This document shows, one piece after another, positions 930-53,575 of a stretch of 64,000 nt of DNA; the stretch's first letter is position 1, and each line of letters begins with the position of its first letter. This DNA comes from a virus. The DNA lies in IMG/VR virus record IMGVR_UViG_3300028423_001099, positions 22,577 through 86,576 of that record; one strand, given 5' to 3'. The notes under the pieces are model-generated. The model worked only from the letters and a program-made list of their open reading frames with translations, made no database searches and was not told the DNA's origin. The translations under genes were made by a program, and so were the position numbers.

Positions 930-1214
930 ATGAACGATATGAGAAAACTATTAGAAGCAGTCGAATCTGCACAGAGTGACAATGCTAGCAGCGCACTGGT
1001 TCGTAAAATTGGAACCCATATGTCCGAGATACTCGAAGATTTTTATTCATACTATGATTTAGAATCCGAAGACCCAGATATCGGCAACAATTTTGAAAAC
1101 CATGGTGGTACAAATGATTACACCAGAGAGCAATTTGCGTGGTTGCAAGCCTACAGTGCGTTTATCGGAGCATCAGGAAGGCTGTTTGATAAACTAATTG
1201 ACATAAAATTCTAG
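930..1214 (+). CDS. Small protein with MNDMRKL N-terminus, first of three
   Basis: A 94-residue protein preceded by AAAGGA. The start MNDMRKLLEAVESAQ is shared with the next two genes (MNEMRKLMETT and MNDMRKLIDAAT), while the rest differs. The L-L-E|A after the motif resembles a T4 prohead protease site. The remainder is acidic with an aromatic-rich centre (FYSYYDLESEDPDIGNN). Function is unknown. The shared N-terminus suggests a common targeting signal, by inference. Confidence 0.85.
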   Translation: MNDMRKLLEAVESAQSDNASSALVRKIGTHMSEILEDFYSYYDLESEDPDIGNNFENHGGTNDYTREQFAWLQAYSAFIGASGRLFDKLIDIKF

Positions 1215-1232
1215 AAGAAAAGGACTGGAATT

Positions 1233-1637
1233 ATGAACGAAATGAGAAAATTGATGGAAACTACAGCTCAGCTGTTTGATGACAGAGTGGAATCAGACAC
1301 CGATCGCTACTATGCTGATCAGGATCGCAGTGAACAAGAAGCAGCAGAGAATCTGCCCTATGACATTGAAGATGCAGAGAACTATTTTCTCAATGACCCT
1401 GCAGGCAAGACAGAGTTTGCAGACTTCTTCTTGGACAATCTAGTAGAAAATCCTAGGGAGGTCGACATTGATCTCATGATAGACATTGTGAAAAACTATT
1501 TTGACAGTGTGGTTGCAGATCAATCTCTGCCAGCTCAGTTTGCAGAATCAGAAACCATGAATGAGGTTCTAGCAAACTATTTGGAAGGTCGTGGATACAA
1601 CTTAGATGCCAGCCAAATCGAACAATATAGAAGATAG
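1233..1637 (+). CDS. Acidic protein with MNEMRKL N-terminus, second of three
   Basis: This 134-residue, strongly acidic protein has an AAAAGG ribosome site. The conserved start MNEMRKLMETTAQLFDD is followed by unrelated sequence with repeated acidic patches (DTDRYYADQDRSEQEAAENL) and an NYF motif seen twice (ENYFLNDPAG and VKNYFDSVV). No enzyme family is recognised. It lies between two genes with the same N-terminal motif, 18 and 9 bases away. Confidence 0.85.
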   Translation: MNEMRKLMETTAQLFDDRVESDTDRYYADQDRSEQEAAENLPYDIEDAENYFLNDPAGKTEFADFFLDNLVENPREVDIDLMIDIVKNYFDSVVADQSLPAQFAESETMNEVLANYLEGRGYNLDASQIEQYRR

Positions 1638-1646
1638 GATATTATT

Positions 1647-2132
1647 ATGAATGACATGAGAAAACTGATTGATGCAGCAACACCGCTGTTTGAATCACAT
1701 AAAAAAACACCCGTGGCAGAAGCCATTGACGGCCCAGATTACGGACACGAAGGCTCAGCTGACATGGCCCTGACACAGTTGCATTTTATCGAGTATGCTG
1801 CACAGGAAGTACGCGAATGCCTGGAAGCAGGTACCATGATGGAAGAATGGTATCAGAACAAGCTGGCCAAAATCCACGGCGACATGGAAGGCCTGCACTC
1901 TCACATGGAAGGTCAAAAGCGACGCAGAGAGATGTGTGGCCCTGATGAGATAATGCCAGATGACATGGCAGATGATGCTGGCCTGGCAATGACCGAGAAG
2001 AAAAAAGACAAAAGCCCAGGCAAGATCGACAAAGACGAAGATCCCTGCTGGAAAGGCTACAAAATGGTAGGCACCAAGAAGAAAAATGGCAAAGAAGTGC
2101 CCAACTGTGTGCCTGGCAAAAAAGGCAAGTAA
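1647..2132 (+). CDS. MNDMRKL protein with paired-cysteine, lysine-rich tail, third of three
   Basis: This 161-residue protein starts MNDMRKLIDAATPLFE after AGGATATT. The middle is helical. The last 45 residues are very Lys rich and end in a recognisable module, DPCWKGYKMVGTKKK followed by PNCVPGKKGK. I recall similar tails in many marine phage proteins of unknown role. Cys-pair and Lys-rich regions also occur at 31921-32733, 33777-34589, 34586-36517 and 36521-36799. A packaged DNA-contacting role is an inference. Confidence 0.85.
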   Translation: MNDMRKLIDAATPLFESHKKTPVAEAIDGPDYGHEGSADMALTQLHFIEYAAQEVRECLEAGTMMEEWYQNKLAKIHGDMEGLHSHMEGQKRRREMCGPDEIMPDDMADDAGLAMTEKKKDKSPGKIDKDEDPCWKGYKMVGTKKKNGKEVPNCVPGKKGK

Positions 2133-3380: not shown

Positions 3381-4217
3381 ATGATGGTGTGCTTCTACGA
3401 TCACAAAAAAAATCTGTTGCTGTTGCCTATTAACAGATGCGGCGCAGGAATGTTTTCTGAGATTGCATCAGCAAGCACAGACCTAACAGTAACCACTGTT
3501 GAAGAATTTTTTGGAGGTGCCAGTCCGGACCAGATACCAGAGATTGTTGCTATTGTGCGGCACCCTACTCGTGCATTTGTCAGTGGTGTCTCAGAGATTT
3601 TTGACGTCAATGGAGTTAGGCCAAAAATAAATCACATAGATCATCGAGCATATCATCTCGGCAGCAGGCATCTATCGCATCGCCTTGCTATTCCTATGAT
3701 TTTTGCATCAGCAGGCTGTACACTAACCATGTGGTTACTTGATGAACTCAGTGAAAAAATGATTGAGCTTTATCCCGAGCACAGTGAAATTATCAATCAG
3801 CATCACAGTGAAGATGCGTGTTCTATGAGAACCAGCAATGTTCGACAGGTGCTATGTTGGCTCAGATATGAAGAATATATCAACAGTGTAAATGTCCAAC
3901 ATGCGTCCGAGTTGACCTGGGAACAGTGGATGGAGCCCGAATTGGACCTATACAAGCATTGTGTGGGTTTCAGGAGATGCCAGCAACACTCAAACGACCA
4001 TGACCCAAAAAGTGTTGGTGAGGGTTGCGTTAGACGGCTGTTTGACACAGAAGCATATTGGTGTGATAGAGCCCCGTCTTATCTAGCGCACGAACTGCCT
4101 CTCAACCTCATTGCTAAACTTTCGTCACTCGACCCCCACTGTTTTGATCCCAAAATAGTAGAGCTTAACAATAGCACAATGTCACGACTTAGCACAGACA
4201 AAAAAATTAACATTTGA
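3381..4217 (+). CDS. Sulfotransferase-like protein
   Basis: This 278-residue protein shows a degenerate sulfotransferase layout. An N-terminal strand-loop (LLLLPINRCGAGMFSEIA) stands where PAPS sulfotransferases have the 5'-phosphosulfate loop. Near residue 58 it has IVRHPTRAFVSG, which matches the RDPxxRxxS-type 3'-phosphate motif. The loop lacks the usual PKTGTT residues, so catalysis is uncertain. It is one of four such genes here, with 21029, 52284 and 52877. No clear ribosome site precedes the tandem ATGs at 3381 and 3384. Confidence 0.6.
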   Translation: MMVCFYDHKKNLLLLPINRCGAGMFSEIASASTDLTVTTVEEFFGGASPDQIPEIVAIVRHPTRAFVSGVSEIFDVNGVRPKINHIDHRAYHLGSRHLSHRLAIPMIFASAGCTLTMWLLDELSEKMIELYPEHSEIINQHHSEDACSMRTSNVRQVLCWLRYEEYINSVNVQHASELTWEQWMEPELDLYKHCVGFRRCQQHSNDHDPKSVGEGCVRRLFDTEAYWCDRAPSYLAHELPLNLIAKLSSLDPHCFDPKIVELNNSTMSRLSTDKKINI

Positions 4218-4231: not shown

Positions 4232-5785
4232 ATGCGCAAAGCTGTGATCTATCCGGGACGTTTTCAGCCTATGCTGAGACACCACGCAGAAGTGTTTCAA
4301 ACACTGCGGGCACAATTTCCTGATGCTGAAGTTTACCTGTCTAGCACAAACAAAACTGACAGCGATTCTAGCCCTTTTAGCTTTCGGGAAAAACAACAAA
4401 TAGCTTCTCAGATGTATGGCATTGATTCGAGTAAGATGCTGGAAATTCCAGTGCCCTACAATGTAGACATGTATGACTTTGACCCAGATAACACACTGTT
4501 GATCATGGCAGTGGGAGGCAAAGACTATGATCGCTTTCCTGTAAAAAACGTCAACGACGAAACAGGATTGGTCATGAAGAAAACAGCAGATGAACCCGCA
4601 CGATTACAGCCAATAGATACTATGAAGGGCGATCCGTTGCCAATGAAACAGAGAGCATATATTGCTTATGCTCCTACAGTAGAAGACCAGCAGGGCGATG
4701 TACGCAGTGCCAGTGCATTTCGTCAACAGTTCAAGTCGGCACCAGATAAACAAACAGCACAAAAAGTATTCACCAGACATTTCGGAGAATACAACGAAGA
4801 AATTTTCAATTTGGTCTATGACCGACTAGTGGAGCAGGATATGAATGAATCAATAAACACTGTGAGAAAGCTGGCAGGACTGCCAGAAGTCCACAGAGAG
4901 CAAGAGGTCACACAGGAAGCAGCTCCTGTGGACTATGCAATGACTGATGCAGAGAAACAGCTGGCAGAGCTAGGCAGAACACTCATGGACAATGCCATGC
5001 AGGAAAACAGTGACAAGCTATCCAACTACATGAGTTTGGTTGGTCGCATGTTCACAGAATATGGCACAAACGAGGGTGCAAAATCTCTGCCTGAACTTGC
5101 TGACAAGTTGAAAATGTCCGAGGAAGAGGTGTTGAAATTTGCAGCTTATGCTCAAAAATTACAACAAGAAAAAGAAGGCACACCAGACAACGAAACCGAA
5201 ATTGACCTCAGTGACTTCTACGAGGGCGAAGTGCCCAAAGACGAATTCGACGAAGCATCGCCGTTGGTGGGTGCAGCAGCGAGTGTTGCAGGGCGCATGG
5301 CTTCTAAATCTGCAGCACGCCGTGGTGCAGGCAAAACTCTCAGCAGGGCTGCAGGCAGTGTTGCAGGCGCTGCGGCCAAATCGGCATTGTCCAAGGCATC
5401 GGGCACAGCAAGGAAGAAATCAGGCAACAAGGACAGCGACATGGAAGAGGGTTCTGTTGCAGACTTTCATGCTGGCCAAGACACAGAGTCGGGCCCGGGC
5501 TGTGACTACTATGATCGGGAAACACCTGTGGCAGATACATTTAGCCACAAAACAGTTGGAGATCTGTCGCCCATCGAAGCCACTGCTCGTCTGAGCACAA
5601 CTGCAGTAAACGATGCAATGGGCCGGCTGGACATGATCAAAGAAAAGCTCTGTGATGACTCTGAGTTGCACACAGAAGTGCACAATGACATACAAGATAT
5701 CATGGACATGCTACGTGATTATCGCAGAGAAATTGTAAATATAGCAGATGACGCAATGAGTCATCAAGGAGATAAAAATGTCTAA
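4232..5785 (+). CDS. Nucleotidyltransferase-like domain fused to a long Ala/Gly-rich tail
   Basis: A 517-residue protein. The N-terminal ~170 residues match the cytidylyl/NMN-adenylyltransferase fold: MRKAVIYPGRFQP, the SFREKQQIA segment, and RSASAFRQQF in place of the ISGTxxR loop. The HxGH nucleotide motif is changed to LRHH, so activity is doubtful. The rest contains MNESINTVRKLAGLP (residue ~208), acidic helices and a basic Ala/Gly-rich stretch near residues 345-400. The start is the ATG at 4232 after a late promoter. A TTG at 4214 falls in the promoter and is rejected. The 3' end overlaps the next gene by 8 bases. Confidence 0.75.
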   Translation: MRKAVIYPGRFQPMLRHHAEVFQTLRAQFPDAEVYLSSTNKTDSDSSPFSFREKQQIASQMYGIDSSKMLEIPVPYNVDMYDFDPDNTLLIMAVGGKDYDRFPVKNVNDETGLVMKKTADEPARLQPIDTMKGDPLPMKQRAYIAYAPTVEDQQGDVRSASAFRQQFKSAPDKQTAQKVFTRHFGEYNEEIFNLVYDRLVEQDMNESINTVRKLAGLPEVHREQEVTQEAAPVDYAMTDAEKQLAELGRTLMDNAMQENSDKLSNYMSLVGRMFTEYGTNEGAKSLPELADKLKMSEEEVLKFAAYAQKLQQEKEGTPDNETEIDLSDFYEGEVPKDEFDEASPLVGAAASVAGRMASKSAARRGAGKTLSRAAGSVAGAAAKSALSKASGTARKKSGNKDSDMEEGSVADFHAGQDTESGPGCDYYDRETPVADTFSHKTVGDLSPIEATARLSTTAVNDAMGRLDMIKEKLCDDSELHTEVHNDIQDIMDMLRDYRREIVNIADDAMSHQGDKNV

Positions 5786-6230: not shown

Positions 6231-7085
6231 TTATTTGATCCAACTGGTGTTAATTACCAGATCTCTGGCATATTCCAGCCAGAACTTTCCTGCAGGCGGT
6301 CCACCGTTGCAGGTGCCGTCGCTTTCTCCGGGCACCTTGATCCACAAGTAAGCATCACAGTGTTCAAGTTGAGTGTGTGTGGTAGGCGGTATGCCCAATG
6401 CGCGCTCGGGCGGATTGCACCACTCGTTGCCATAAGGACCTGCACCGTTGCGGCTGGTATCTACCACATAATAATCAACATCTGCATATTCCCTGACTCG
6501 TTCGGCCCACTTTACACTCTCTTTGGTGGTGCGATAGTTGCTCACATTCACACTAAAGCCTCTGGTCTCAGAATTGCACACACTGTTGAGCAGTTTGCCT
6601 GCTGTTTCGGGATCAAGCCAATTGCTGTGCCCGATGTCAGCATACACATGAGCATTGCAGTTTTCTCTCAAAATTGACAGAGATTGTTTCATGAGTTCAA
6701 GACGTTTTTGCGCAGGTTTTTTCTCCATCAATGTGGTGTGTGGCAATCCGTCGGGCTCATATATCACAATGGGCTGTCGATCTCCCAGTGTTTTTGCAAA
6801 TGTTTCTATGAACTGTAGATATGTGTCATCACTAGAAGCGCCGCCTTTGCTGTAATTACCCATGTCGCGGTTGGGCAAATTGTAGATCACCATGATAGGT
6901 AGCAGCGGGTCAGCTCTGTTGAGAAGACGTGTGATCCGACTGTGTACCTTGAAAAGATCTTTTTTGCCTTTTTTTACTCCAAACCAAAAGGCCACAGGAT
7001 ATTCAAAGATTTTGCCTGCCACAGGATATTTCTCTCTGTGATTGCGAATACGATCAAAGTCGTTGACGTAGAAAGGATAATCCAT
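6231..7085 (-). CDS. Glycoside hydrolase family 6 (cellulase/cellobiohydrolase-type) enzyme
   Basis: This 284-residue protein carries most GH6 signature segments in order: VIYNLPNRDMG (67-76; family YDLPDRDC), VIYEPDGLPH (107-116, with the presumed acid Asp112), YADIGHSNWL (148-157), FSVNVSNY (177-184), YVVDTSRNG (206-214), then WIKVPGESDGTCNGGPP (248-264). GH6 enzymes hydrolyse beta-1,4-glucans by inversion. No signal peptide or carbohydrate-binding module is present, so it would stay in the cytoplasm until lysis or ride on the virion. It sits 8 bases downstream of the deformylase and shares its late promoter. The ribosome site is weak. The fold assignment is strong, the substrate unproven. 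Confidence 0.88.
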   Translation of the reverse strand: MDYPFYVNDFDRIRNHREKYPVAGKIFEYPVAFWFGVKKGKKDLFKVHSRITRLLNRADPLLPIMVIYNLPNRDMGNYSKGGASSDDTYLQFIETFAKTLGDRQPIVIYEPDGLPHTTLMEKKPAQKRLELMKQSLSILRENCNAHVYADIGHSNWLDPETAGKLLNSVCNSETRGFSVNVSNYRTTKESVKWAERVREYADVDYYVVDTSRNGAGPYGNEWCNPPERALGIPPTTHTQLEHCDAYLWIKVPGESDGTCNGGPPAGKFWLEYARDLVINTSWIK

Positions 7086-7093
7086 ATGAGGAT

Positions 7094-7678
7094 CTAGCGA
7101 ACGCTGCGATACAGCTTTTTAAACAGTTTGTCTCGCTTTTGCTTGGCATGCTTGAGTTTGAATTCACTCACATGGTCCAAGAACACTTGTCCTTGTAGGT
7201 GATCATACTCATGCAGGAAACAGCGAGCATCCATGCCATCCATCCAGGTTTCAACTTGAGTTTTGCCGTCAGTCTTGTAATACCTTACTTTGATTTCTGC
7301 CGGACGTTCGACCAATAGATACAACAGTGGCCATGTGAGGCAGCCTTCTTTGATTTTTGCTGATCCCTGTGTTTCTAGGATTTCCGGTTTGTAGACACCA
7401 ATGTCGCCAAGCATGCTATGTGTCATCACAAACATATTATAACTACTGCCCAGTTGGTTGGCTGCTAGGCCAATGCCCATGTTGTCGTGCATCAAAGCAA
7501 GCATTTCCTGTTCTCGCTGATGCCAGTCGACGTCGCTGCTAAACGGATCAGTGGTAGCTTTGCGATACAGTGCAGGATGACTGGGCTCTACTAGCTCGCA
7601 GTGCCACTCGTCTACACTGAGACTGCTTGTGCGCACCGAACTACTGCTGGCATATCGATCGTAGGGATTATATTGCAT
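7094..7678 (-). CDS. def: Peptide deformylase
   Basis: This 194-residue enzyme removes formyl groups from new N-terminal Met and is common in marine phages. All three family motifs are present: GIGLAANQ (68-75), EGCLT (111-115, metal Cys113) and HEYDH (156-160, metal His pair and catalytic Glu). The ~25-residue N-terminal extension is Ser/Tyr rich. The ATG at 7678 lies 5 bases from AATAAATA, so its mRNA is predicted to be leaderless. The GH6 gene follows in the same unit. Confidence 0.93.
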   Translation of the reverse strand: MQYNPYDRYASSSSVRTSSLSVDEWHCELVEPSHPALYRKATTDPFSSDVDWHQREQEMLALMHDNMGIGLAANQLGSSYNMFVMTHSMLGDIGVYKPEILETQGSAKIKEGCLTWPLLYLLVERPAEIKVRYYKTDGKTQVETWMDGMDARCFLHEYDHLQGQVFLDHVSEFKLKHAKQKRDKLFKKLYRSVR

Positions 7679-7683
7679 AACTG

Positions 7684-7691
7684 TATTTATT
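7684..7691 (-). promoter_or_regulatory. Late promoter octamer AATAAATA for the deformylase
   Basis: Read on the minus strand, AATAAATA is followed by CAGTT and the ATG at 7678. The 5-base spacing puts +1 at the A of ATG if T4 geometry holds. A second AATAAATA lies at 7712-7719 on the same strand. Confidence 0.6.
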
Positions 7692-7737
7692 TGAAATTTC
7701 TGAGACTGCGATATTTATTTGAAGAGATATCAATCAA

Positions 7738-7745
7738 GATAAATA
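7738..7745 (+). promoter_or_regulatory. Late promoter octamer GATAAATA, divergent from the deformylase promoter
   Basis: The exact octamer is followed by CCATT and ATG at 7751. Its 5-base spacing mirrors the divergent deformylase promoter. There is no room for a ribosome site in the predicted transcript. Confidence 0.7.
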
Positions 7746-10557: not shown

Positions 10558-11097
10558 TCAGAGATTATGCACATTAAAGGCCTTATAAGTGCGCTGAACG
10601 CACACTGCCTGCCAGTATGCATCGTCGTCAGCACTGTGTAGATTTTGCTGAACTTCTTTGCGCGGGTCTTTGGGCATCATGTTAAAAATAGTGCGACAGT
10701 CCATGATCTGCCAGAATGCCCAGTTTCTGTGATGCTGAAACTGGTCATAGAGATTTTCCAAGATAACCATATCAAACTGTGGTCCTTGACACCAAATTTT
10801 GTTGACACCCACTAGGTACTTGTTGAGTTCGCCAAAAAACTGCTCCAGTGGTATTCTGCCCTCTTCAGTGAACGTGCTTTCTCGTATCTTTTCGTCCTGC
10901 TTGCCCCACCATGCCAGTGTGTCCTCACCAACTGCTCTTCCTGCTTGCAACTGCTGTTCCACAGCTGGTCTCCACAACTGTTTGCTGTTGGGCTCTGTGA
11001 GCACATATGGATCAAATTTACATGCACCCACAGTGAGCACTGCTGCACCAGGTGATGTGTCAAGTGTCTCGATGTCAATCATTGCATGTGTTGTCAT
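10558..11097 (-). CDS. DnaQ-fold 3'-5' exoribonuclease-like protein (Rv2179c-like)
   Basis: A 179-residue protein starting MTTHAMIDIETLDTSPGAAV. The DIET motif is exonuclease motif I of the RNase H-like DEDD fold, and the LDTSPGAAVLTVGA context is typical of the Rv2179c-like exoribonuclease family. FDMVILENLYDQ fits motif II and HSADDDAYWQA fits motif III. It probably trims RNA or DNA 3' ends. An AAAGG site and a sigma70-like promoter precede the ATG, indicating early expression. It is the first gene of a unit with two downstream genes. Confidence 0.85.
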   Translation of the reverse strand: MTTHAMIDIETLDTSPGAAVLTVGACKFDPYVLTEPNSKQLWRPAVEQQLQAGRAVGEDTLAWWGKQDEKIRESTFTEEGRIPLEQFFGELNKYLVGVNKIWCQGPQFDMVILENLYDQFQHHRNWAFWQIMDCRTIFNMMPKDPRKEVQQNLHSADDDAYWQAVCVQRTYKAFNVHNL

Positions 11098-15400: not shown

Positions 15401-16501
15401 TTACCAGTCAAAGCTGTAGGAATTTATGTCAATAAGGCAGTTATTGTCAATGATATCTTGTGCCTGTTTGAGCACATCTTCAGCTTCTGTGCTAAAAACT
15501 GGCATGGAAAGGCTTTTGTCGTCGGGTATATTTAGATGGAACAAAGGATATCTGTATCGACAGTCAAAATCATTGTATCGCCCGGTTTGCATAGCTAAAT
15601 GAACTTTGAGCCTCTCAAATCCAGTGAATTTTTTCAATGGCATCATAAAATCAAAGCCAAAGCTGTTGTAAAATGCCTGCTTGTATTCGTCTACACTTGA
15701 CTTCAACGTGTCGCCAAAGTTGGCAATTATTTTTTTGTTTTCAAGCACCCAAAAGTTTTGTTTTAACGCTTTGTAATAGATTTCACTGCTCATGAGAAAG
15801 GGATCTCTGATAAGTGTCATGTGGTTGTCTGATGCCATTTTCACATATGGCATGACCAGTCTTCGAAAATGTGTTACTTGACTATTCACAACTCCATCGG
15901 TCAGCGATGAAGGCCACCTGAATGGCAGAACCGCAACGTTATTTTGGTGTCCTATCACAGGAAATTCGCCTCCCATGAGAACTGGCAGATTTTGATCTGC
16001 TAGATGCTGCTCTATGGCATATAGATGGCAAGCAATCTGTGGGCTCAATGCATAATACTTTTTTGCTACGCTGGTCAGCTCATTGTCTAAAAAATGCTTT
16101 AAATCAATGTCGACAACATGATGTGTGATTTGATGTTTTTGACAAAACCGCGTGGCCATCAGCACATCACTGGAGTTTACAACGTCATCATTCCAGAAAT
16201 ACTGGAATGTATATGCTTGCATGCTTTTGCAGTGCTTTTTTGCAAGATGCGCAGAAAATTGACTGTCAAGACCCCCACTGAGACACAGCAAAATTTCTGG
16301 ATACTCTGCAAACTGCTCAGCCCACATACTCTCCAACGACCTATTGGTTTTTTCTAGGCACACATGCACTGTTTTTGCCTGTAGATCAAAGGTCACTGCT
16401 TCGGGCTTTCCCAGTGAGAATGTGTTCTTTGCAGTCAATATTTTGCCTTTGTTATAACATAGATTTGATAAATACTTATTGATAAAACATCGCAAACCCA
16501 C
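15401..16501 (-). CDS. PP-loop ATP pyrophosphatase, asparagine-synthetase-like
   Basis: This ~366-residue protein has the PP-loop signature LCLSGGLDSQFS near residue 75, which binds ATP pyrophosphate in N-type ATP pyrophosphatases (asparagine synthetase, QueC, NAD synthetase). LMGGEFPVIG and RDPFLMSSEIYY resemble asparagine synthetase synthase domains. No glutaminase domain is present, so it would use free ammonia or another nucleophile. The start is uncertain. GTG at 16501 is a compromise, because longer versions run into the divergent subtilase gene and no ribosome site is clear. Confidence 0.7.
   Translation of the reverse strand: MGLRCFINKYLSNLCYNKGKILTAKNTFSLGKPEAVTFDLQAKTVHVCLEKTNRSLESMWAEQFAEYPEILLCLSGGLDSQFSAHLAKKHCKSMQAYTFQYFWNDDVVNSSDVLMATRFCQKHQITHHVVDIDLKHFLDNELTSVAKKYYALSPQIACHLYAIEQHLADQNLPVLMGGEFPVIGHQNNVAVLPFRWPSSLTDGVVNSQVTHFRRLVMPYVKMASDNHMTLIRDPFLMSSEIYYKALKQNFWVLENKKIIANFGDTLKSSVDEYKQAFYNSFGFDFMMPLKKFTGFERLKVHLAMQTGRYNDFDCRYRYPLFHLNIPDDKSLSMPVFSTEAEDVLKQAQDIIDNNCLIDINSYSFDW
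16467..16474 (+). promoter_or_regulatory. Late promoter octamer GATAAATA for the subtilase
   Basis: The exact octamer lies 46 bases before the subtilase ATG. The leader contains GGAG. It overlaps the 5' end of the opposite-strand PP-loop gene. Confidence 0.7.
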
Positions 16502-16520
16502 GATTTCACGGAGATCTCGA

Positions 16521-18041
16521 ATGTCATTGTATATTGTTAAACTAGATAAAGCCAATTACCCAGGCGGAGACACAGAAGCTCGTTCTGCCATGTCTTCAGC
16601 AGGAATTGCGGTTGAAAAAGCATTTCAACTATCACCATTGATGTACTTAGTAAACGGAGATGCCAATGACATCGACTCCCTGCCGGGATTGATGCACAAA
16701 GAGCAACATTCAACTGGATACAATGTTAGCCTGGAAAATCTCAACACTGATCATTTGAAACTCACTGTTGACAGTGCCGGAACCACAGAGTTTAATCCAA
16801 AATACACAGGCAACAATGTTGACATTTATCTAGTTGACACAGGTGTTAATCAGTCGCATACAGAATTTCAAGGCTCTACCATCAATGACTTGTACACCAA
16901 CTTTGAAAACAATTACAGCGATGATGTTGGACACGGCACTGCAATGGCAAGTCTGCTGGTAGGGCAAAACATCGGAGCTGCCAAAGATGCTCAATTGCAC
17001 AATGTGAAGCTGTTTGGCAATAGCAACAGTACTGTTGTTATTGGAGAAATAATTGATGCACTAGAGTCTGTGCTAGTGCAGCATAATACCAGCTCAGGAA
17101 ATAACATCGCAATTGTGTGCGCTCCGTGGGTAATTAATTTTAGTGCATTGTTGAATGACGTTGTCGAGAGCATGCTGTCACATGGTATAATTTTTGTATG
17201 TGCGGCAGGAAATTCAAGTGCCGATGTTGAGAACTTTTCGCCAGCATCAGTGAAAGATGCTATCACTGTGGGAGCATACAACAGAAACTTTGAGGTTACA
17301 TCATTTACAAATACACCGTGGACAAACAATGAGCCCACTGAGCCCACGTTGGTCAACTATGGTCGTTCTTTGGATATTTTTGCACTTGGTGTGGACGTAA
17401 CAGCTGCTAGCATTGGAGCAAATGATGATTATTTGCAGGCCACCGGTACCAGCACATCGGCCGCGATTGCTGCAGGAGTTCTAGCTCATTACATAGAAGC
17501 GCATCAGAACAGATCGTCAGCAGAAATCAAACAAATATTCTTGATGGAAGGTCATTATCTTGGCCGGACCAACCTGGTTTTTGACAACCAGAATTCAAAT
17601 GTTGATTACAGTGAAGTTAATAGTTCTGTGGTGACTACAGAAAGAATCGATGAAAATAGTTTGACCACCAAACCTTCAGGCAGGCTTACAAATATCAAAG
17701 CTGGTGAGACAGCGCAAGTTGACCTAGGACTTAACAGCAACGCCACAGAAGTAGAGCTGTTGGATTTTGCACCAGCCCCAAGCTGGATAACAGTAGATTT
17801 AAGCACAGGAATAGTAACAGTTGATGCAGGAAATTTGACCAACGAAACCGTGCCAGGAAATTATATTTTTGCATTAAAAGGCAATGTCAACGATCAAGTT
17901 CTGGTTGAAGAGTTTGCTGTAGGGGTTTATCAAGATAGCGAAGCAGAGTTAGCGAGCGAAGACGTGTCAGCGTTCTACTATGATGCTGACAGCGATGCAT
18001 ACGATGAAGTAGCAGACCTATCTCTTGCCTCAAAGTTCTAA
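16521..18041 (+). CDS. Subtilisin-family (S8) serine protease
   Basis: This 506-residue protein has all S8 landmarks: catalytic Asp106 in YLVDTGVNQSHTEF, His138 in VGHGTAMASL, oxyanion Asn231 in CAAGNSS and Ser311 in TGTSTSAA. Residues 1-75 look like an I9-type inhibitor/propeptide domain (MSLYIVKLDKANYPGG). From ~375 a beta-rich tail resembles an Ig/cadherin-like domain (APSWITVDLSTGIVTVDAG). No signal peptide is present. The ATG at 16521 follows GGAG, and an upstream TTG lacks one. A late promoter precedes it. A role in virion maturation or host protein cleavage is inferred. It is distinct from the usual T4 gp21 prohead protease. Confidence 0.9.
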   Translation: MSLYIVKLDKANYPGGDTEARSAMSSAGIAVEKAFQLSPLMYLVNGDANDIDSLPGLMHKEQHSTGYNVSLENLNTDHLKLTVDSAGTTEFNPKYTGNNVDIYLVDTGVNQSHTEFQGSTINDLYTNFENNYSDDVGHGTAMASLLVGQNIGAAKDAQLHNVKLFGNSNSTVVIGEIIDALESVLVQHNTSSGNNIAIVCAPWVINFSALLNDVVESMLSHGIIFVCAAGNSSADVENFSPASVKDAITVGAYNRNFEVTSFTNTPWTNNEPTEPTLVNYGRSLDIFALGVDVTAASIGANDDYLQATGTSTSAAIAAGVLAHYIEAHQNRSSAEIKQIFLMEGHYLGRTNLVFDNQNSNVDYSEVNSSVVTTERIDENSLTTKPSGRLTNIKAGETAQVDLGLNSNATEVELLDFAPAPSWITVDLSTGIVTVDAGNLTNETVPGNYIFALKGNVNDQVLVEEFAVGVYQDSEAELASEDVSAFYYDADSDAYDEVADLSLASKF

Positions 18042-19895: not shown

Positions 19896-21032
19896 TTAGA
19901 GACTGAGTCCTTTGAAAGTGTCATCATCAACATCCTGTTTGGTACCGCCGATCACATAGCTGCTCAGTTCTACTTCTTGTGGAGCAACTTGCACGTCAGA
20001 ACCGGAAATCCATTTCTGTGTCCACGGCAGAGGGTTGCTTCCTGGTGCGCTAAACGGCGGGGTGAGACCCACAGCACGCATGCGCTTAACTGCAATCCAC
20101 TCCACATACTGCTTGAGCAGTTCTGCGTTGAGTCCAATCATTGAACCGTCTTTGAACAGGTATTCCGCCCACTGTTTTTCCTGCTCCATTGCACTCACAA
20201 ACATGTCAATGGCCTCTTGCTCACATTCTGCAGCAATCTTAACAAAGTCCGGATCATCCTGTGGCAACAGTTTGAGCAACTGCTGTGTGCCACCCAAGTG
20301 CAGATTCTCATCTCGGCAGATAAACTTGATAATCTTGGCGTTGCCTTCCATCTTTTTCACTTCTGCAAACGCCCAGCTACAAGCAAAGCTCACATAGAAT
20401 CGAACACCTTCTAGGATATTCACACTCATCATGCACAGATACAACAGTTTCTTGAGTTCATACAAATCGACCACAATCTTTTTGCCATTTACCTTGTGTT
20501 CGCCTTCGCCAAGAAGATTATACCAACTGGCCATTTCGATGAATGCATCATACTTTTCTGAGATGTCCGCGGCACAGTCCACGATCTCCTGAATATTCAT
20601 CATTTCATCAAACACTTTGCTAGGGTCAGAGTACACGTTGCGGATGATGTGTGTGTAGCTGCGACTGTGGATGGTTTCGTTGAAACTCCAGGTCTCAATC
20701 CAAGTTTCCAGCTCTGGCAAGCTGACAACAGGCAGGAAAGCCATGTTGGGAGAACGCCCTTGCACACTATCCAAGAGGATTTGTCGCTTGAGATTAGAGG
20801 TGAAGATGTGCTGTTCATGCTCTGTGAGATCGCGGAAGTCTTTGCTGTCTCGGCTCACATCTACTTCTTCGGGACGCCAAAAGAATCCCAATTGTTTGTC
20901 AGTGATCTTGTCAAACTGACGGTACTTGAGTGTGTCATATCTCTGTATGGTTACACCGCCCTCCTCGTCAAAGAACATTTTGCTTTCTGCGTGGTTGGAT
21001 TTGTTTTGTGAATCGAATACTGATTGTGTCAT
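19896..21032 (-). CDS. nrdB: Ribonucleotide reductase class Ia small subunit
   Basis: This 378-residue subunit provides the diiron-tyrosyl radical for Nrd[16 protein letters not shown] holds Glu and His iron ligands and the radical Tyr, LLDSVQG the first Asp, and [12 protein letters not shown] the later Glu/His ligands. GAGGA precedes the ATG, which overlaps the stop of the sulfotransferase-like gene by ATGA. The last ~45 residues contain the linker and C-terminal tail that docks on NrdA. Confidence 0.97.
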
Positions 21033-21583
21033 TTTGGTCCTCTGTTTATAAATGTTACGTTGTTGATTAACTCATAGTCTACATCATACAATGGTTTTAC
21101 TCTATCTTTATCTATCATTTGCACAAAATTTCCTGATGTATTTGTGAGCGGCATCCGTTGAAAACCTATGCCGTTGTAATATACATCTATTTCGTGAAAA
21201 ACGTTTTTATTATAATAAAAATACTTAATTTTTTCCGAGTGTGCTCTAATTATTCCGTGTATAAATGCCACTTGCTCCATTAGATGCACATCGGGCTTGT
21301 CAAAGAGTCTGTTAATATAGAAAGAATCAATATATGTGCTTTTTCCGGATAATATGTGAGTATTGAAAGCACTCAAAAACCTTTCTACTGGATCTCTGAG
21401 AATGATTATAATTTCTTCTGGCTCAGAAATTTGATGTAAATTCGAAACAACCCAGTCGTCTCGCTGCCTGCAAATTGTCCTCAATGAACTTGTTCCAACT
21501 TTAGGAATACCTACCAGAAATATATTTTTTTTCTGATTATAAAACCCGTACCCCCTAGGATGTATTCCTTGAATTAAATGCAT
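21029..21583 (-). CDS. Sulfotransferase-like protein inserted between nrdA and nrdB
   Basis: A 184-residue protein with [18 protein letters not shown] at residues 20-37, which matches the 5'-phosphosulfate loop (PKxGTSS). [15 protein letters not shown] near residue 66 matches the 3'-phosphate motif. Both PAPS-binding motifs are intact, though the protein is short. The gene and its upstream 108 bases look more AT-rich than the nrd genes on either side, suggesting late acquisition. GGAAGG precedes the ATG. Confidence 0.8.
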
Positions 21584-52283: not shown

Positions 52284-52880
52284 TTATAGTTTTTGATTTT
52301 GATAGTTGAGATGATTCTGCCATAGCTCAACATCTCTCGTGTAATAGCGGTCGATGATGTTTTCCACAACACCGTGATGTTGTTTTAGCAATGACTCAAT
52401 GCTGGTTTGATGATGCTTGCTGTTTGCCAAACGATCTGGATTTAGATGACTTTCCACAACGGGCTGGTGTTGCTTGAACCAAATTGATCGCTGTAGCTCT
52501 TGGTCTAGTTTTTCAAACTTTAATATGTGCGTAAAAGCAATACCTTCTATGTAATGCAATTGTGGTTCGAGGTGTTCGTCGAAGCCTGTAGGATCATTTA
52601 ACAAATTCTCTAATAACTGTTCTAGGCTTTCAGACCGACGCTTTCGTTTGCGAAACTCTCCTAGTGCGCTAATCAGTCTTGTTCTAGGATTTCTCAGTAT
52701 ACACACGGTTTCGGTACTGGCTTGATCTTTTAATTTGACACGACTCATTCCTGTAGCCTCACAGATTTTACGCATCATCATGTTGGCGTTTTTGGGCACA
52801 CTGATCCATGCACACTGATCACAATGCCAGAACCATCTAGGCGAAGGAAACTGTTTGTTTGTGATCTTGTATTGATTCAC
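52284..52880 (-). CDS. Sulfotransferase-like protein
   Basis: A 198-residue protein from GTG at 52880, which overlaps the upstream stop (GTGA). It has CAWISVPKNANMMMRKICEA (5'-phosphosulfate loop position) and VCILRNPRTRLISALGEFRK (3'-phosphate motif, RNPxxRxxS). The end is helical and His rich. The SVPKNANMMM form matches family 2-like sulfotransferases that act on carbohydrates. It follows another sulfotransferase-like gene. An earlier TTG/GTG start would lie inside that gene. Confidence 0.78.
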   Translation of the reverse strand: MNQYKITNKQFPSPRWFWHCDQCAWISVPKNANMMMRKICEATGMSRVKLKDQASTETVCILRNPRTRLISALGEFRKRKRRSESLEQLLENLLNDPTGFDEHLEPQLHYIEGIAFTHILKFEKLDQELQRSIWFKQHQPVVESHLNPDRLANSKHHQTSIESLLKQHHGVVENIIDRYYTRDVELWQNHLNYQNQKL

Positions 52881-53575
52881 GATGTATAGTAGTAAGGTTG
52901 TTTTTTGATGTAGTCTAGTAACTGATAATCTGCTTGCCGCCACTGTTTGAACCTGCTAAGAATATCTGGCTCAACTTCATAACTCTGAACAAAATCAAAC
53001 TGTTTCCTGCTTCTGGCCCTGAATGGGTTTTTGGGCATGTCTATGTTGTAATGATTTTTCATGTATGCTGTGAGACTTTGAAGATCGATAGCACTTACCA
53101 CTCGTTTTTCTTGCTCCTGATACTCTGTTAGACTTCCCAACCACCAGCACAGGCTTTGAGTGGCTATGCCCAGGGCGGTGTGTGTTTTGTAGGTGTCGTC
53201 TTGATCAAAATCGTATAGTAATTCCTGATATTCTGGCGCACGCTCTAATAACAGATATAAATCACTAGGCGTAGTGGTTTGTGACAGAATTTCACTATGC
53301 CAATCGGGTAATTTGTCTAGCTTGTTATAACTGCCTATCTTGTAAAACCTGTTTTCTTCTTGATGCGCTAACTGTTTTCTCAGATACAGAGTTTTGGCTT
53401 CCCAAAACCCACTGCAAAATCTTTGCCAAGGATCTCTGACGCAAAATATAACACGATTATAAGATTTGAGGGTGTGCTGGTGGGTGTTGCACACATTGAA
53501 AAATTTCAACCCATCTTTGGCCAGAGACTTTAGTGCAGTGCCGCCAGTCTTAGGTATGTGTAGGAAAGTGATCAC
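52877..53575 (-). CDS. Sulfotransferase-like protein
   Basis: A 232-residue protein beginning MITFLHIPKTGGTALKSLAK, a textbook PAPS 5'-loop (HIPKTGGT). VIFCVRDPWQRFCSGFWEAK is the 3'-phosphate motif. It is probably an active sulfotransferase for a sugar acceptor. The start is GTG, overlapping the methyltransferase stop by GTGA. It is the best-preserved of the four sulfotransferase-like genes here. Confidence 0.87.
   Translation of the reverse strand: MITFLHIPKTGGTALKSLAKDGLKFFNVCNTHQHTLKSYNRVIFCVRDPWQRFCSGFWEAKTLYLRKQLAHQEENRFYKIGSYNKLDKLPDWHSEILSQTTTPSDLYLLLERAPEYQELLYDFDQDDTYKTHTALGIATQSLCWWLGSLTEYQEQEKRVVSAIDLQSLTAYMKNHYNIDMPKNPFRARSRKQFDFVQSYEVEPDILSRFKQWRQADYQLLDYIKKQPYYYTS

Follow-up and report, generated by a model that had tools for sequence, protein, structure and literature searches.

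A late-type operon of T4-superfamily phages encodes a GH6 endoglucanase-type protein that may cut host glucan at lysis

Cellulases are usually seen as tools of cellulose eaters or, when found in viruses, as incidental auxiliary genes. The locus described here raises the question of what use a phage could make of such an enzyme. The window, i.e. the whole stretch of 64,000 nucleotides analysed, belongs to an IMG/VR virus record of 86,576 bases and carries on its minus strand an uninterrupted open reading frame (ORF) of 284 codons, with the ATG at position 7085 and the stop at position 6231, while on the plus strand the same interval is interrupted by internal stops. An earlier note on this DNA had assigned the ORF to glycoside hydrolase family 6 (GH6). 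This call and its coordinates proved right, and the strand, absent from that note, is given here:

6231-7085, minus strand: GH6 endoglucanase-type catalytic domain, 284 amino acids, no signal peptide, no CBM (ORF, Pfam PF01341, PDB matches, AlphaFold2 and Foldseek)

Hereby, the profile search that the earlier note had proposed as a check returned Glyco_hydro_6 (PF01341) at residues 21-262, covering profile positions 16-300 of 305 with E=8.3e-52 and a score of 177 bits (curated cut-off 27). The best PDB matches found with phmmer are the endoglucanases MtCel6A (CelA1; 1up0, 1e-57) and TfCel6A (E2; 1tml, 1.1e-45). The MDYPFYVN start of the phage protein aligns with DSPFYVN, the start of the TfCel6A catalytic domain. 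The ORF thus begins at the domain itself, and neither a signal peptide nor a binding module nor an extra domain was found in it, which bears out the description of the protein as compact and devoid of such parts. No PHROGs family matches the protein, which nevertheless almost certainly belongs to GH6.

To account for the fold, we built an AlphaFold2 model from a 27-sequence alignment, which reached a mean pLDDT of 89.7 and a pTM of 0.90. The sole segment with a pLDDT below 50 comprises residues 75-80, directly after D74, which we take to be the GH6 active-site loop known to be mobile. In a Foldseek comparison with the PDB, the distorted (beta/alpha) barrel of the model retrieved only GH6 structures or GH6-derived scaffolds among the 50 matches listed, with the endoglucanases MtCel6A (TMq 0.89) and TfCel6A (TMq 0.86) at the top and the tunnel-type cellobiohydrolases, about 70-160 residues longer, ranking below them. 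In the viral structure library the best match to the model had a TM of 0.43-0.46, and no GH6 fold was visible there. The active site was mapped, in TfCel6A numbering, onto 69 distinct phage proteins including that of the window. Hereby, W41, Y73, D79, D117, D156, K259, E263 and D265 are identical in all 69, and of three further positions W162 is likewise retained in 69/69, H159 in 68/69 and W231 in 66/69. The acidic set of the window protein consists of D74, D112, D150 and D256, all of them invariant; D112 and D74 correspond to the catalytic acid and the assisting Asp of TfCel6A (D117 and D79, respectively). Three of the codons are located as follows:

6864-6866, minus strand: codon of D74 (position of TfCel6A D79 and HjCel6A D175, motif NRDMG), Asp in 69/69 phage rows
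6750-6752, minus strand: codon of D112, the predicted catalytic acid (position of TfCel6A D117 and HjCel6A D221, motif EPDGLPH), Asp in 69/69 phage rows
6318-6320, minus strand: codon of D256 (position of TfCel6A D265, motif PGESDG), Asp in 69/69 phage rows

The structure prediction suggested in the earlier note thus yields a GH6 endoglucanase fold, and the observation by which that note would have abandoned its reading, a structure devoid of the catalytic Asp residues or of the cleft, was not made. With 284 amino acids the phage protein is about as long as TfCel6A (286), compared to 358-443 amino acids for cellobiohydrolase domains. Since it has the length of an endoglucanase domain and nothing more, an open cleft rather than a tunnel is most likely, i.e. 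the long tunnel-roofing loops should be missing, as judged by length and Foldseek ranking; a tunnel-type cellobiohydrolase is ruled out by the same two observations. The predicted catalysis should hence be that of an open-cleft endo-beta-1,4-glucanase, and activity on a beta-1,4-glucan is likely. Compared to MtCel6A and TfCel6A, with which it shares domain length, core catalytic and substrate-binding residues and open-cleft loop lengths, the phage protein is 35-38% identical, lacks a secretion signal and is encoded in a late-type phage operon.

The gene is not confined to the window. A single-protein scan for GH6 gave 23 viral loci, and a profile scan gave at least 159 IMG/VR stretches with relatives, of which 80 were retrieved and yielded the 69 distinct proteins, window included. 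The retrieved relatives range from 65% down to 43% identity over virtually the full length; none of their proteins has a signal peptide, the starts being of the MDYPF(Y/W)VN type or a variant thereof, and no frame disruption was found in the GH6 ORFs of the 80 stretches. Across 40 comparable pairs, dN/dS has a median of 0.09, i.e. the phage gene is under strong purifying selection. Judging from these sequences, a chance match is to be excluded as the origin of the GH6 signal, because relatives down to 43% identity persist at near full length with this low median dN/dS.

The carrier is a T4-superfamily myovirus, as marked by the genes for UvsX, a gp32-like SSB, a DnaB-type helicase, a primase, a UvsW-like helicase and a phage ribonucleotide reductase on the contig, in agreement with the phage origin assumed in the earlier note. 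Since these T4-type genes are present and GH6 relatives occur on contigs as long as 339,794 bases (another has 216,820 bases), the window is probably a fragment of a jumbo phage genome. No tRNA genes were found in the 64,000 nucleotides, there is no close isolate, and host prediction failed. The nearest isolates by UvsX (57-67% identity) are Rak2-like, T4-superfamily jumbo phages of Rhizobiales, Xanthomonas and enterobacteria, among them Sinorhizobium phage Phosso, Agrobacterium phage Atu_ph07, Pectobacterium phage CBB and Cronobacter phage GAP32; a tblastn search of the phage collection found no GH6 in these four, of which Phosso also has a deformylase (41% identity). UvsX is present on 7 of the 12 GH6 contigs, where it is 79-84% identical to that of the window, and none of the eight contigs with a UvsX 68-74% identical to the window's carries GH6, these contigs being incomplete (39-203 kb). 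A universal occurrence of GH6 across the wider lineage is thus unsupported; the gene may mark one phage sublineage, though its absence from incomplete contigs is no proof.

To place the phage proteins among cellular ones, a maximum-likelihood tree was calculated from the 69 phage proteins, 42 cellular GH6 domains, TfCel6A, MtCel6A and two other GH6 proteins from phage records. All 69 phage proteins cluster together there, supported at 100/100, and their stem measures 0.81 changes per column. Monophyly was kept when two proteobacterial and two further actinobacterial sequences were added and when long branches were left out; over the three trees the single phage clade has a support of 100/99 to 100/100, its stem measuring 0.8-1.0 changes per column. 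Identity to the best cellular matches is just 42-45%, and one myxococcal sequence (Myxococcales L029), itself a long branch, joins the phage clade weakly (80/76). The trees thus point to a single old origin of this GH6 clade in phages. The two other phage-record proteins, one from Streptomyces phage Gilgamesh and one from an unverified faecal contig, do not belong to the jumbo-phage clade; GH6 therefore entered phages on more than one occasion. The family is typical of secreted bacterial enzymes, as one would expect of a recently captured host gene or of a cellular contig misfiled as viral, but the phage hallmark genes of the contig, the monophyly, the long stem and the distance to cellular matches rule out both, so that we regard the chance of either as negligible.

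The traits common, though not family-defining, among secreted GH6 enzymes, a leader and two conserved disulphides, are not those of the phage proteins. By motif count, a cysteine at the position of TfCel6A C80, beside the D79 equivalent, occurs in none of the 69 phage rows compared to 33 of 42 cellular ones, i.e. the C80-C125 disulphide of MtCel6A and TfCel6A is absent. For the second disulphide (C232-C267), lost in most phage members, both cysteines are kept in 15/69 phage rows versus 37/42 cellular rows, again by motif count; the window protein, with C223 and C259, is among the 15. The first conserved GH6 disulphide thus appears lost throughout the clade and the second mostly, which fits cytoplasmic folding. 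It is from the missing signal peptide together with this loss that we infer folding in the cytoplasm. According to column counts, C223 and C243 are each present in 66/69 phage proteins, while three rows carry F and V there; this pair might form a new disulphide or a metal site that only the phage clade has.

The genomic context of GH6 indicates when the enzyme could be made. The elements upstream of the gene are:

7094-7678, minus strand: peptide deformylase, 194 amino acids, first of the two operon genes (PF01327, E=1.2e-29; phrog_2890)
7684-7691, minus strand: late-promoter-like box AATAAATA, 5 nt before the deformylase ATG
7712-7719, minus strand: second copy of AATAAATA, 20 nt upstream of the first
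7739-7745, plus strand: ATAAATA box, an example of the 5-nt spacing

The deformylase, which shows the motifs GIGLAANQ, EGCLT and HEYDH, lies 8 nt upstream of GH6 on the same strand, and among the 80 related viral loci it is found upstream of GH6 in 59, in 43 of them within 40 nt. Both the deformylase linkage and the late promoter described in the earlier note are thereby substantiated. Some relatives have a monothiol-type glutaredoxin (101 amino acids) directly upstream of GH6 (10590-10895, minus strand, in L116; 7688-7993, plus strand, in L010), between GH6 and the deformylase where the latter is present. Within the window, ATAAATA occurs at most 60 nt upstream of 13 of the 81 gene starts compared to 0.7 expected, and 26 of the 61 distinct GH6 operons have TAAATA directly before the start codon of their first gene. 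Pooling all related loci (L036-L119 and the window) gives 418 distinct ATAAATA sites, of which 98 are followed at exactly 5 nt by the ATG of an ORF with 80 or more amino acids and another 14 at 6 nt; rearranged control hexamers give no such peak at spacing 5. T4 late promoters carry TATAAATA at about -13 to -6. By this geometry the +1 position would fall on the A of the deformylase ATG, and the GH6 operon is therefore probably transcribed late and as a leaderless mRNA, the timing being read from sequence. More generally, the geometry of the box leads one to expect that leaderless late mRNAs are widespread in these jumbo phages.

What, then, might such an enzyme do? In the explanation we favour overall, and to which we give an even chance, a late cytoplasmic GH6 endoglucanase is released at lysis and cuts host glucan. 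Hereby, the phage would make the endo-beta-1,4-glucanase in the cytoplasm without a secretion signal, and the enzyme, co-transcribed with the deformylase from the late promoter, would accumulate late. Once the phage lysozyme opens the envelope, it would exit the cell and, by the usual inverting GH6 mechanism, cut a cellulose-like beta-1,4-glucan in the host capsule, the biofilm or a shared matrix, which would free the progeny and clear the path to new hosts. Catalysis, substrate, late timing and release at lysis are the predicted parts of this explanation. Lysis release or a virion role agrees better with late expression and absent secretion than host feeding does. For extracellular action following lysis, as opposed to a role as part of the virion, we put the chance at slightly less than even. 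A gene for a T4-type lysozyme (PF00959) is found some 9-10 kb away from GH6 in three contigs (G001, G002 and G005) but 88 kb away in G004, so that linkage to lysis genes is weak evidence. The neighbours of GH6, i.e. deformylase, glutaredoxin in some relatives, DNA ligase, radical SAM protein and methyltransferases, do not form a lysis cassette.

The main rival, which we consider unlikely, is a virion-borne depolymerase that a partner tethers to the tail or baseplate and that cleaves a capsule of beta-1,4-glucan at adsorption. The late-type promoter would suit it, and a precedent exists in gp72 of Streptomyces phage Gilgamesh (QFG13264.1, annotated as glycoside hydrolase), likewise a phage-encoded GH6 protein (34% identity), whose gene is located close behind minor tail protein genes. 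However, gp72 has 444 amino acids and an extra N-terminal domain, clusters with actinobacterial sequences rather than within the jumbo-phage clade and was independently acquired. In the phage protein studied here, GH6 fills the 284 amino acids from near residue 1 and leaves no room for an anchoring or trimerising domain, and no recognised tail genes adjoin it in the window or in L116; thus, neither the module nor the tail-module location typical of tail depolymerases is found. Consecutive small proteins encoded at 930-2132 (plus strand) have similar leaders, MNDMRKLLEAVES, MNEMRKLMETTAQ and MNDMRKLIDAATP, that resemble T4 capsid-targeting leaders, which makes them candidate internal head proteins. 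A T4-style capsid targeting of GH6 itself is ruled out, since GH6 starts directly with its domain and not with MN(D/E)MRKL as these neighbours do. The phage also encodes a subtilase at 16479-18041 (plus strand; PF00082, E=4.8e-29; protease family phrog_3677).

An intracellular enzyme acting on a host or phage beta-glucan, e.g. nascent cellulose at the inner membrane or a phage-directed glycan, is in our view rather improbable. While the missing signal peptide and the disulphide loss would fit work in the cytoplasm, and glycosyltransferase-like and sulfotransferase-like genes are present in the window, we know of no cytoplasmic soluble beta-1,4-glucan in bacteria, and a constant glycosyltransferase partner is lacking, families F8 and F9 occurring in 11/24 loci. 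As to other surrounding genes, a 517-amino-acid protein (4232-5785, plus strand), convergent with GH6, resembles a nucleotidyltransferase in its N-terminal stretch (phrog_395, E=7.5e-6), to which a low-complexity region containing an RKLAGL-type motif is fused; L116 also encodes a weakly cytidylyltransferase-like protein near GH6. One weak Pfam match to Sulfotransfer_2 is found at 21029-21583 (minus strand), and the N-termini encoded at 52877-53575 (minus strand) and 3381-4217 (plus strand) look sulfotransferase-like by eye only; a possible function of such genes is the modification of surface glycans.

Viral GH6 genes in metagenomes are usually read as auxiliary metabolic genes. In a single report, GH6 genes of Mariana Trench viruses were interpreted as acquired from bacteria and as serving to degrade the cellulose of algae (PMC8725595); these genes likewise lie on viral scaffolds and are compared here by description only. 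Applied to our locus, this reading would have the enzyme break down environmental cellulose to feed the infected host, and other cargo genes do occur in the neighbourhood. Nonetheless, we consider host feeding quite improbable, because without a signal peptide, which is missing from every phage protein, the enzyme would have no route to outside cellulose before lysis; in addition, the promoter is of the late type, and no transporter or beta-glucosidase gene was recognised among the annotated neighbours.

Together with Gilgamesh gp72, encoded near tail genes, the trench virome report corrects the view of phage GH6 as unprecedented. The GH6 family and viral GH6 are already known; for this jumbo-phage clade, its single origin, the disulphide loss or the deformylase-linked late operon, no description was found in the libraries and literature searched. 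We hold it somewhat less likely than not that lysis release applies in its full form, i.e. a single old acquisition that was kept as a cytoplasm-adapted late GH6 endoglucanase and that would dissolve a cellulose-like host glucan at lysis.

In conclusion, a complete cellulase active site under purifying selection across a whole phage clade points to a viral use of the enzyme and suggests that aquatic jumbo phages cut cellulose-like polysaccharide late in infection. The clade adds a protein family that neither PHROGs nor the searched viral structure library contains. If the proposed role is true, the protein would offer a compact, possibly disulphide-independent cellulase scaffold, and the hosts of these widespread uncultured aquatic jumbo phages would be predicted to have beta-1,4-glucan coats.
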